From: Discostella pseudostelligera
Lineage: Eukaryota; Bacillariophyta; Thalassiosirophyceae; Thalassiosirales; Thalassiosiraceae
Assembly: GCA_036940085.1 (NCBI GenBank)
Contig: JALLBK010000389.1
Coordinates: 1-41,369 of the forward strand
Reading direction: 5' to 3'
DNA length: 41,369 nt
The notes beneath the pieces are model-generated. The model saw nothing but the letters and a program-made list of their open reading frames with translations, was not told the DNA's origin and did no database searches. This document shows positions 177-4,134 of this stretch, piece by piece (the first letter of the stretch is position 1; every line of letters begins with the position of its first letter). A program made the translations under genes and the position numbers.

Positions 177-580
177 TCATGAATAGTAGAAGCCTTATTA
201 AGGATAATAATTTTCAAGCAGGAAACCAACACTGGATGCAATTATACGTGCATCATCATGACAAAGAGTGCATGAGAATTTCGCTTGTAACTTCTCTGAA
301 AGGTCATGATCATATTTTTCAACTTTGGTATTTCGCCAATCGTCACGTCATGTCACTGAGGCATGCGTGTATCAAACTTTTGGAGAGGTTGTTTGAATGA
401 TAATTGGAAGAGCGACGCTTCATGTTGCAACAATGTAGTTGGGGCAAAGAAAGTGCCGATGATGAGTTGCTACTCTCGATAAATCAGGTGTACTAATATT
501 ATGGGCATGAATGGCCTGCTATCAGTGGTCTATAAATATGTCGATTGTCGAACCTCAATACGCATCGTTGTCTCCTTTCC
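177..580. other. Intergenic, nothing recognised
   Basis: Only short overlapping open frames without recognisable domains are present. This probably holds the 3' flank of the RanGAP-like gene and the 5' flank of the partial left-edge gene. Confidence 0.5.
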
Positions 581-3067
581 CTAAACCAAACTAGTCAATA
601 GAGTATGCAATTCATCCAAACTTTCGGGCTTCACTTGCAGCATGAACCACTCCACGCCTTTGCTTTCCTCCTCCACGGCAACAAATCGGACGTTTGCCAC
701 CTTATTTCCTCCTTTCCCATTCGTCTCAACCTTCTCAAATTTCATCCCCGACGAAACAGCCACATTGAGACGCACTTTGCCACATTCGTTCCGAACTGCC
801 ATGCGATGAGTCCTCGTAACCTTGTGACGATACACACGAAGAGCACCAATGTCTCTCTTCTTCCACTCGGTGTTCTCCTTTTTGAGAGGAATGGCACGAA
901 CTTCATACAATACCTCCTCTTCGGTGTTCTCCATTCGTTCGACAAACTCAACCTTGCCATCGTCGGGGTTCGCCGTGGGATCATCCTCCTCCTCATTCTC
1001 CTCGACGCCGCCGCCGCCGACATTGCTGACAGTGTGAGAATTGGTAGTTGAAGGAGCTGAGGTGGTGGTGGTGGTGGCGCCAAAGGAGATTGTCGGCACG
1101 GAAGAATTGGTAGATGATGCAGCTGAAGTGGTGGCGCCAAAGGCAAATGACGGGGTGGACGATGATGGAGCAGTAGCAGAAAACGAAAATGGAACGGATG
1201 GTCTATCGGTAGACGATGGTGCCGCCGCCGGGGCAGTTGCTCCAGATAACAACCACGAGGAACTTGCCGGTTGAGGTTGATTGGAAGAAGAAGTTCCGGC
1301 ACGGGTACCTGAAGAAGGATGATTGGTTGAATTTCTCTCCTCCTCTTCTGCTTGCGCCGCCTCGAAATCCGCTTCTATTTTATCTGCATGCTTCAGATAC
1401 TCCGTCAGAAATCCTGAATAATCATCCGCTTTGTGCCCTCCTTCATAAAGGTCGATAATCGTTTGCCACAAGAGGATGTTCAAATCACGCATTTCTTTGT
1501 TCCTTTTCGCCAGCGCAGTCATGGGTTGAGAAGATGGGGTGGTGGAATTGGAGGTGACTGTTCCAGAGCCAAATTTCCTACAGGGAGGACAAGAAATAAT
1601 GATTCGTAATGTTTCACATTAATGAGTATGTTGTCTCGCAAAGAAGGGGAAATGCCCCCAAAAGAATGTACATCATCCTCTCACCCTCTCGAGAACCTGA
1701 CAATCTTCCGCCGTTTGAGCACGTCTTGGCTGGCGCGTTCAAATCCTGTACCAATACATGCCCCCAGGGAATGCAATACCGAGGAGGTCTGAACCACGGG
1801 GGACGGTGAGTTGAGGTCCAACCCCCCCAGACCACGGCGCACACCTCCATCCCTCTCATCTTCCTCCTCTTCGTCATCAGAGAGATCATCATCCGCATCT
1901 CCATCGGAGTCATTGTCGTCCACCTCACCGAGTCTGAAATCGAATGCAACCTCGAGCTCGCTCAAAACATCTCCAGCAAAAGAATTGCCATTCAGGAAAA
2001 TTGCGTTCAAATTCGGAAGATTCTTACCATTGGGTCCGAAGGCGGCCATGAGAGCTCGCGCGCCGATGGCACCAACCATACAATTGTTCAATTGCAATTC
2101 CTCGATGCTGTATCCATCCACACTGCCACGAAACGCTGCAGCAATCAACTCAATTCCCTTGCTCGTCAATTCGTTATCCTCTAAGCGAAGTGTTTTCAAC
2201 TTGCCCCCACGATCACGAATGTAGTCAGCAATATGCTTGGCACCACGCCTCGTAACAACATTTCCACTAAGGTCTAGATGTTCCAAGCTCGAGTCACATC
2301 CAAACAAGGCGTCGCAAACTTTCTCCACTCCATCATCCTTCATATCGCAGTTACCCAGGTTTAGGTGAGAAAGAGATGTGGTAGATCCCAATGCACGGAA
2401 CAATGCCTCATGGGAAGCGGTGCTCGAGAAGGTGTTGTCGTATAGATCCAACTTCCTCAAATTGGGGTTGTTTCCAGCGCCGAGGAACGCGTCCAATACC
2501 GATGCAATAATATCACTCCCGGCTTTTCCAGCACGAGTGCCCGAGAATCGAAGATCTTCCATCCTGGTGCATTTCTCAAAGATTCGAGCAAATTCCGTGC
2601 ATCTTTGTCAAGTAAGTAAGCGAATAGTAGCCGAGAAGTAAGTACGACAATTCGGAGAATTGATGAACGACACGAGACCGACAAAAACAAGACGACACTA
2701 CTTACCCCTTCTCACCACTCATATTATTGTAAATATGAAGCTTTGTCAAATTGCCCGCAATACACCCCGCTCCATCATTGTCTCTCGTTAGCAAGTCAGC
2801 CACCGTCGTCATGGTCTCACCACTGAACCCATTGTTGCAAAGCGATAGCCGTTCCAATGACTTTAGAGTGACAACCGTCTCACAAGCCCCAATGGCCTGT
2901 TCACCAATGGCATTTTCACTGAGATCGACTTCGATGAGATTGGAATTGGCAAATGCACTACAGATCAATCGGAGGACGAGTATTCCCTCCGCGGTCGAAC
3001 GGCCGCTGGCGTCACAACCCTCATGACGTCTCTCTCGCGTCATGCTGTTTGATGCCTCTGGGCGCAT
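581..3067 (-). CDS. RanGAP: RanGAP-type LRR domain fused to Nup50-like FG region and Ran-binding domain
   Basis: The model is three exons: 3067-2706, 2602-1685 and 1577-581, with GT-AG introns (GTAAGT donor at 2705, GTGAGG donor at 1684). The exons sum to 2277 nt, or 758 residues. Residues about 20-350 are RanGAP-like leucine-rich repeats resembling plant RanGAP (VDLSENAIG, IYNNMSGEKG, MEDLRFSGTRAG). SGRS near residue 23 matches the position of the catalytic Arg of Rna1p/RanGAP. An Asp/Glu-rich tail follows, as in RanGAP. Then comes SQDVLKRRKIVRFSR, similar to the Nup50/Nup2 segment that binds importin-alpha. FG motifs (KFGSG, FAFG, ISFG) and a C-terminal RanBP1-type domain (from EVLYEVRAIPLKK, about 646-758) complete it. 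The inferred role is Ran-GTP hydrolysis coupled to the nuclear-pore basket. The first RanGAP LRR is not seen upstream, so the 5' end is uncertain. ATG 3067 or 3043 is favoured because upstream frames are not LRR-like. Confidence 0.85.
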
Positions 3068-3187
3068 TATTATGGCCGGGGTAGGCCGGGATAATATGGT
3101 TGGAAGGGCTCCGTAGGGGGTGGCGGTGGCGGCGGCCGCCGGTGGGTGAGATATTATCGTTGGAGTGTGTTTTTGAAGTTGGAGATA

Positions 3188-3197
3188 TTGGCGGGAA
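3188..3197 (+). promoter_or_regulatory. E2F-like element TTGGCGGGAA
   Basis: Matches the E2F/DP consensus (TTTSGCGC/TTTGGCGGGAA). It lies about 300 bp upstream of the Ran-like start codon and about 120-150 bp upstream of the RanGAP-like start. It is one of a series of similar elements in this window. Confidence 0.5.
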
Positions 3198-3326
3198 GAC
3201 CTCCACATGGAAGTTGCACGAAAAGGGAGCACGAAAAGGGAGGAAGAGCGATGTGCCCGTACAAACTTTGAAGTGTATTCAACTCCTTCGTGGGTCGCCT
3301 GCGCCGCCCCCTTTTCGTGTGCGAAA

Positions 3327-3348
3327 AGCTGCGAATTAATTCGCAGCT
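3327..3348. repeat. Perfect 22-bp palindrome
   Basis: The arm AGCTGCGAATT is followed directly by its exact reverse complement AATTCGCAGCT, giving a 22-bp perfect dyad. It lies in the shared Ran/RanGAP promoter and abuts a second inverted repeat. It could be a dimeric factor site. Confidence 0.7.
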
Positions 3349-3488
3349 GAAATTTGCCATTTTCCCCTTTGCGGGGCCCACAAGTGAGAGTGGAGAGCGG
3401 AGAGTCGATCAATCAATTCAATCCAAGCTTCTACTATCCCTAGACCCTAGACCACTACCCCCACAGTATTACCTTCTTGATTATCAAC

Positions 3489-4134
3489 ATGGTGCGTTAA
3501 TTGTCAATCGTTCAATGTTGAGTGTCAGCCTTGTGTTCTTCATCTAATCCACTGTCTCCTATCCATCTATTTATAAATCGGTTTGGCACAGCAGGCGGCA
3601 CAGCAGCCATTCAAACTCATTATCATTGGCGAAGACGGAGTGGGCAAAAAAAGCTTTGTGGACAGGCTCTTAGGGAGGAACATTCCCGTCAGGTACGAAC
3701 CGACCATGGGACACAATGTTCATGAGCATGTCCTTAGGACAAACCAAGGTGACATCGAGTTTGAGATCTGGGATACCTGTGGTCAGGAGCGACCTGGTCG
3801 ATTGAGGAGCGAATACTACCAAGGCGCTAAATGCGCCCTTCTCATGTTTGACATTACATCGGTGACTACCTACAGAGAAATGAGAAGGTGGTACTATGAT
3901 ATTGTCAGAGTTACTGGAGAAGAGATCCACTTTGCCCTTGTTGGGAACAAGATTGATCTAGGACGTAGGCCAACCATGGAGAAGTATATCACCCTTCACA
4001 AAAAGGTTAGAAACATGCAATACTTTGAAATGTCCGTCATGACCCAAGGAGACAAAGATATACGAGTGCCACTCCTTCATTTGGCTGAGAGAGTAATCGG
4101 GATGGAGCCGGGGACCCTCAGCTGGAGGGAGTGA
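3489..4134 (+). CDS. Divergent Ran-like small GTPase
   Basis: The start codon at 3489-3491 is followed at once by a GTGCGT donor. Exon 2 begins after GGCACAG at 3592, or 3 nt later at the tandem CAGCAG acceptor, giving 180-181 residues. Switch and core segments resemble Ran (HEHVLRTNQGDIEFEIWDT, then ALLMFDITS, YYDIVRV, FALVGNKID, LHLAERVIG). The switch I Thr (YEPTMG) and the catalytic Gln (WDTCGQE) are kept. The P-loop reads GEDGVGKKS, where Ran has GDGGTGKTT, so the Mg-binding Thr24 position is Lys. The SAK motif is SVM. The protein ends at about residue 181, without the Ran C-terminal helix and acidic DEDDDL tail. The frame is intact. Inferred to be a specialised or catalytically altered Ran paralogue, not the housekeeping Ran. 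Confidence 0.85.
3492..3591 (+). other. Intron directly after the start codon, tandem acceptor
   Basis: A GT donor follows the ATG immediately, so exon 1 contributes a single codon. The acceptor CAGCAG is a NAGNAG pair giving M-Q-A-A-Q-Q or M-A-A-Q-Q. The shorter form looks more like other Ran N-termini. Confidence 0.75.

Follow-up and report, generated by a model that had tools for sequence, protein, structure and literature searches.

The window analysed here, 41,369 nucleotides and the whole of contig C389 in an assembly of 23.0 Mb and 963 contigs, carries on its minus strand a gene that we read, with a probability of roughly 0.6, as a truncated copy of a lineage-specific fusion between RanGAP and Nup50, the intact form of which would be a one-chain machine resembling RanBP2/RanGAP1. 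Three exons, from 3004 (or further upstream) to 2706, from 2602 to 1685 and from 1577 to 581, give one open frame when joined, with the stop codon at 583-581. The first-pass annotation had proposed a single spliced protein made of a RanGAP-like array of leucine-rich repeats (LRRs) and a Nup50 part, and this holds, as the joins 2706/2602 and 1685/1577 are in frame and both introns run from GT to AG. The apparent stop of the LRR frame, a TGA, does lie inside the donor of the second intron (1684-1578), which keeps the frame and ends in CTGTAG as had been described, but the donor reads GTGAGA and not GTGAGG. The gene had been drawn as far as 3067, which is too long, since its own sequence starts at about 3004. 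The features of the locus and its surroundings are as follows.

2706 to 3004, minus strand: exon 1, RanGAP-homologous, with the catalytic-arginine codon (3001-2999) and the LRRs that follow; 85% identical to residues 114-214 of P0002 (tblastn).
2603 to 2705, minus strand: intron 1, 103 nt, GTAAGT..CAAAG; the joined product NNMSGEKG/CTEFAR continues the LRR of the relatives without a gap.
1685 to 2602, minus strand: exon 2, with the rest of the RanGAP LRRs, the acidic tail, the linker and the second half of the Nup50 importin-alpha region.
1786 to 1920, minus strand: the acidic tail together with the leading portion of the linker, DDNDSD...GGVRRGLGGLDLNSPSPVVQT, with the same letters in P0002 save for the first residue.
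1685 to 1753, minus strand: Nup50-derived end of exon 2, GTGFERASQDVLKRRKIVRFSRG, where the homology to contig C54 starts (blastn, 1558-1753); 92% over 74 bases.
1578 to 1684, minus strand: intron 2, 107 nt, GTGAGA..CTGTAG, inherited from Nup50.
581 to 1577, minus strand: exon 3, with the Nup50 middle segment, the FG stretch (about 1297-983), the Ran-binding domain (about 982-584; Ran_BP1 2.4e-8 in the genome scan) and the stop codon.
465 to 580, minus strand: downstream flank common to the Nup50 gene on C54, in which the duplicated block ends; 110 of 119 aligned bases identical over 465-583.
3005 to 3370: dispersed repeats that now form the 5' side, with 3005-3043 like C332, 3094-3197 like C612, 3208-3369 like C427 and 3300-3365 like C755.
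3489 to 4134, plus strand: degenerate Ran paralogue, with a probable first-exon ATG at 3489 and its main frame at 3577-4134; best PDB match Ran (2bku_A, 8e-41).

The joined product consists, in this order, of RanGAP-like LRRs, the acidic C-terminal tail of the RanGAP part (1920-1843), the linker, the segment ERASQDVLKRRKIV from Nup50, a short FG stretch with two FG dipeptides and the Ran-binding domain. A search with domain models, which had been suggested as a check, finds LRR_6 (1.2e-12) and Ran_BP1 (3.7e-8; 34.1 bits, cut-off 23.2) on the joined protein, and the Pfam NUP50 model reaches 17.4 bits against a cut-off of 22.5 (17.2 bits in another scan). The window sequence retains the second importin-alpha segment (KRRKIV), with this NUP50 score under the Pfam cut-off; the first importin-alpha site (the N-terminal K-R) is absent from the window fusion, as the C54 homology begins downstream of that site. 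LRRs, acidic tail, FG repeats and Ran-binding domain are present as the first-pass annotation had them, but of the importin-alpha region of Nup50 just the second half is. Nothing in the window matched Rfam at gathering scores.

None of the 47 proteins matched by the joined protein is called RanGAP in the names listed. We take the LRR part as a likely RanGAP because of an alignment with Rna1 that spans the whole array (query 157-485 to chain 31-358, 7.5e-11), a RanGAP1-like catalytic loop, the acidic tail and motifs of plant RanGAP, which we presume to fit. Among the PDB matches of the joined protein are RanGAP1 (3.3e-12) and Rna1 (7.5e-11), with general LRR proteins scoring above both; in a profile search of the PDB, Rna1 came 12th (4.6e-17). 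The loop SDIIAGR of P0002 aligns with SDMFTGR of RanGAP1 (chain 9b62_G), weakly at 8e-4 for the N-terminal half alone, and via P0002 the GR of the window (3004-2999) aligns with the GR of the same chain, the preceding strand being absent. The catalytic arginine is kept in 11 of the 13 sequences of alignment A1, P0002 included; P0013 and P0014 have Q. Over residues 207-455 of the stand-alone protein P0003 the RanGAP part of the window is 72% identical, and P0002 is 57-66% identical to the twelve stand-alone diatom RanGAP-like proteins P0003-P0014. Like the fusion, these proteins as well as Rna1, RanGAP1 and plant RanGAP combine an LRR array, a catalytic-arginine loop and an acidic tail, whereas the VDDLAxAMxKSLVV-type C-terminal tail of stand-alone RanGAP is replaced in the fusion by the linker and the Nup50 part, and the window copy is without the first 113 residues. 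An NES-like match occurs in the C-terminal 40 residues of 10 of the 12 stand-alone RanGAPs, against 0.9 expected from shuffles. The NES-like VRRGLGGLDL in the window linker (1842-1813), found also in the linker of P0002, is a match that arises in 17% of shuffled linkers; it is a hint, and only that, which would fit a cytoplasmic model. Another RanGAP was not found in the 963-contig, possibly incomplete assembly, where the other LRR matches have 28-34% identity.

P0013 (whose CCRYP tag we read as Cyclotella cryptica), P0014 and P0016 form one clade in which all have Q instead of the catalytic arginine. In P0016, with P0013 as its nearest relative in the tree, a RanGAP paralogue stands behind the C-terminal ARM repeats of importin-alpha (residues about 1-143; PDB importin-alpha 9.3e-30, Arm_3 2.7e-10) in a frame of 633 aa; it may be a second case, independent of the first, of RanGAP being fused to the importin-alpha/Nup50 axis, or else an assembly artefact.

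The first-pass annotation had also pointed to other diatom genomes as the place to look for the same fusion. The best by far of the 47 matches, P0002 (Discostella pseudostelligera ACHAWU_005121, deposited without a function name), is the same fusion from end to end, 74% identical over 99% of the query; the query started at ATG 3208, its first residues are not RanGAP, and it is by chance that both proteins have 805 aa. The next 14 proteins (P0003-P0016) match 44-45% of the query only, which is the RanGAP half. The two fusions have 44 identical residues in the tail and linker, DNDSDGDADDDLSDDEEEEDERDGGVRRGLGGLDLNSPSPVVQT, and both lack about 115 low-complexity residues that follow KFGAGT in separate Nup50; the linker stretch up to KIVRFSRG is unrelated, being SSVLHSLGACIGTGFERASQDVLKRR in the window and an FG-containing piece in P0002. 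The same fusion, the identical residues and the common loss place its origin before the split of the window and P0002 lineages, and on this comparison at least two related diatoms have kept the fusion. Genomes of D. stelligera and D. stelligeroides are listed in PMC12159174. An independent origin of the two is unlikely given the common tail and linker and the common loss, though the Nup50 part of the window is closer to C54. In P0002 the second importin-alpha site is eroded (TTTTSQKIVRFSRG) and Pfam NUP50 was not detected; Ran_BP1 is above the cut-off, as in the window.

Among 16 RanGAP-like proteins placed in a tree, the two fusions come out as one clade at 100% support. Their stem is long (0.25), and the tips measure 0.101 for the window copy and 0.106 for the intact P0002, so that the truncated copy evolved at no higher rate than its intact counterpart, a point against a gene long dead. 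Of 114 positions that do not vary in P0003-P0016, each of the two fusions departs from the rest at 13 (5 of them common), where leaving out each of P0003-P0016 in turn gives 1-10; together with the long stem this suggests relaxed or altered constraint. In the lists from the searches for homologues of the fusion and of Nup50, the fusion is the only sequence labelled D. pseudostelligera, and the majority of the diatom-like ones are without a species name. This is weak evidence that the species of P0002 has neither a separate RanGAP nor a separate Nup50; P0049 may be its separate Nup50 or that of a near relative.

The source of the Nup50 part can be traced within the assembly. A separate and complete Nup50 gene lies on contig C54, with the start MKRVQEHQ, both importin-alpha segments, the same intron position and Pfam NUP50 and Ran_BP1 both above the cut-off. 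Identity to C54 at the DNA level is 86.6% over window 465-1556 and 80% over 1558-1753, and the second intron of the window agrees with that of C54 at 84 of 98 aligned bases. From this DNA identity the fusion appears to have taken Nup50 from about codon 26 on, together with its intron and downstream flank; judged by these alignments, the Nup50 part of the window is a duplicate of the complete C54 gene and the fusion breakpoint is the start of C54 homology at the end of exon 2 (1753). Nup50/Nup2 proteins (C54, P0052 and P0053) and the fusion have the middle segment, FG and the C-terminal Ran-binding domain in common, and the window alone also the second importin-alpha segment, but the fusion is without the N-terminal MKR segment, is shorter by about 115 residues and has RanGAP in front. 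Over the Nup50 part (313 codons), dN/dS between window and C54 is 0.38 (NG86) or 0.48 (YN00).

Identities in the Nup50 part are 86.3% for window and C54, 82.6% for window and P0002 and 91.4% for C54 and P0049, the latter (304 aa) being placed on the D. pseudostelligera side by inference, from residues common to P0002. That the window is closer to C54 than to P0002 would favour separate origins if it were not for a conversion reading. In a four-way test of these sequences, 10 columns unite the fused proteins, 6 group by lineage and 0 crosswise; the 6 lineage columns all lie within 35-79 and the 10 fused columns within 68-296. We read columns 35-79 as a conversion-like tract, and the whole as one old fusion followed by gene conversion.

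Some further sequences touch on this part of the protein. P0050 is a Nup50 mosaic, in part C54-like and in part window-like, by gene conversion or as a metagenome or assembly chimera, and P0051 (source jgi) is nearly identical to the window exon-3 protein. Ran-binding domains in the genome lie on C570, C389 and C54, and NUP50 motifs on C447, C54 and C389; the motif on C447 (6180-6398, L027) lies in a 499-aa frame, and none of the three Ran-binding domains is on that contig. Importin-alpha IBB domains were found in the assembly on C355 and C96.

In the first-pass annotation the first RanGAP LRR seemed to be missing, and it is: the complete RanGAP N-terminus with the first LRR is present in P0002 and absent in the window. 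The alignment with P0002 begins at residue 114-115 of that protein (window about 3004), with a single residue ahead of the catalytic arginine. When two N-termini were compared with the window by tblastn, the best of the matches listed had E 0.095 and none of them looked like the N-terminus; in the assembly, at E up to 10, the P0002 N-terminus gave 3 matches, all starting at residue 114 or later, and with P0003 as query the alignment sets in at residue 105. An open frame extends to 3412, with in-frame ATGs at 3208, 3067 and 3043, and what the repeat DNA encodes there is not RanGAP. A hidden upstream exon for the first LRR was considered and rejected, as the N-terminus has no convincing match in window or assembly and 3005-3370 holds repeats of other contigs; an AG at the homology edge (..GCCAG), tried as a splice acceptor, sits at the edge of the 39-base repeat common to C332. 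By these criteria the window copy is a 5' truncation, in which a rearrangement with its edge on a dispersed repeat removed RanGAP residues 1-113. Since these residues are gone and the homology starts one residue before the catalytic arginine, GAP activity of the window copy is most likely slight or absent, and the GAP function ascribed to it earlier is improbable in intact form. A perfect 22-base palindrome, AGCTGCGAATTAATTCGCAGCT, lies at 3327-3348 in a region that matches C427 and C755.

Head to head with the fusion, the possible starts being about 280-450 bases apart, lies the Ran-like gene, which the first-pass annotation had missed. Of the best 60 of its 846 PDB matches the first 45 are Ran/Gsp1 (8e-41 to 9.7e-29), and Ypt51 and Rabs follow from 1.8e-22. 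It shares 43% identity with the canonical Ran of C310, and its P-loop reads GEDGVGKKS (GKK and not GK[ST]), as in P0113, the altered residue being in our reading that of Ran T24. The acidic C-terminus is gone (the protein ends in PGTLSWRE) and the SAK motif is lost, while the Q of DTCGQE and NKID are kept; the protein probably lacks normal GTP handling. At E up to 1e-10, among 27 candidates only, its relatives are P0113 (98% identical) and two distant proteins. A viral origin was rejected: 4 stretches of viral contigs matched a pattern and none encodes a relative, in a comparison that would show close relatives only. The canonical Ran (C310, 19145-19627, L022) has NKVE at a position where NKxD is the rule.

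How could such a protein arise and work? A Nup50 duplicate without its first 25 codons would have landed in frame behind RanGAP before the window and D. pseudostelligera lineages separated, with loss of RanGAP's own last residues. The intact form would then unite in one chain the LRR GTPase-activating domain, the acidic tail, a partly invariant linker with its NES-like motif, the FG repeats and the Ran-binding domain. The FG repeats would catch complexes of transport receptors with RanGTP, the Ran-binding domain would expose the RanGTP and the tethered LRR domain would speed its hydrolysis. A GAP sited at the nuclear basket would counteract the RanGTP gradient, and as a basket position would be harmful in this way, we favour action on the cytoplasmic side. 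Release of importin-alpha is unlikely to be the main job, as Nup2 needs two sites, of which the window keeps the second and P0002 neither in full.

The first-pass annotation had gone further and placed GAP, Ran-binding domain and importin-alpha release on one molecule of the pore basket. The joining of RanGAP and Nup50 in one protein stands, with a second species to match, but this reading of its function is doubtful, and we regard a basket molecule as quite improbable. The kept KRRKIV, the FG repeats and the Ran-binding domain would suit it; yet release by the fusion is not a safe conclusion with the first site absent, about 115 residues gone and the second site eroded in P0002, as both sites are needed in yeast Nup2 (PMC7891619). 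Furthermore, the complete Nup50 on C54 exists for the basket job, and a basket GAP would dissipate nuclear RanGTP. It is barely credible that two adjacent genes were misread as one. The Nup50 part is indeed a duplicate with its own downstream flank, but RanGAP, linker and Nup50 motif lie in one exon with neither a stop nor an in-frame ATG between them, and P0002 has the same arrangement together with the 44 identical residues.

That the 5' end of the window copy is an assembly chimera or belongs to a single haplotype, the true gene having a full N-terminus, seems unlikely to us: two repeat-sharing contigs do end close by (C755 at the last base of the repeat and C332 392 bases past it), but a chimeric join would be perfectly identical, whereas the edge match to C332 is 95% over 39 bases and the other repeat matches are 78-96%, with one 35-base piece identical to C427. 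We give even odds to a 5'-truncated dying or regulatory duplicate, with the working RanGAP (perhaps an intact fusion) outside the assembly, a reading compatible with our main reading of the intact form as a one-chain RanGAP-Nup50 machine. RanGAP is expected to be essential, and yet residues 1-113 were not found in the contig or the assembly, which together with the truncation edge on a repeat and an assembly of no stated completeness would speak for a working copy elsewhere. Conversely, the frame is intact over three exons, the tip does not exceed that of P0002 in length and dN/dS is below 1, all of which weigh against a dying gene, and beyond the Nup50 end no second copy of window 1680-3010 was found in the assembly.

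RanGAP is placed differently in different eukaryotes: by SUMO and RanBP2 in animals, by the WPP domain in plants and not at the pore in yeasts (PMC11825100). In the vertebrate RanBP2/RanGAP1-SUMO1/Ubc9 complex the proteins are separate and binding depends on SUMO, whereas the fusion is covalent and has one Ran-binding domain of the Nup50 type. The trypanosome RanGAP and RanBP1, on the cytoplasmic side of the pore, are likewise a lineage-specific placing of RanGAP near a Ran-binding protein, but there the GAP is related to RabGAPs and the proteins are separate, in contrast to the single chain of the fusion (PMC11825100). The cytoplasmic place of mammalian RanGAP1 depends on Crm1 (PMC4624696), and in yeast Nup2 both importin-alpha sites matter in vivo (PMC7891619). 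No RanGAP-Nup50 fusion was named in the titles and abstracts from our literature search, which left subscription papers mostly outside reach and is no proof of absence.

Ran is the master switch of nuclear transport, and RanGAP sets the direction of that transport. Tentatively, and as less likely than not, we suggest that in Discostella-type diatoms a single-chain RanGAP-FG-RanBD protein may have replaced free RanGAP, so that Ran GTP hydrolysis would be hard-wired to an FG/Ran-binding nucleoporin module; a Cyclotella-like lineage would have joined a RanGAP paralogue to importin-alpha ARM repeats in P0016, and RanGAP would thus have been joined twice to the importin-alpha/Nup50 axis. The window fusion and the Ran with the altered GTP site would perhaps form a non-catalytic Ran sensor pair. 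If true, a covalent FG/Ran-binding tether would be a further solution to the placing of RanGAP and would offer a natural experiment on the need to keep GAP and Ran-binding domain as separate molecules, and it raises the question of how a cell manages when the one RanGAP in sight is attached to part of a nucleoporin. Inside one narrow diatom group, a presumed essential gene would have been reshaped by a duplicated nucleoporin, by gene conversion and by truncation at a repeat.
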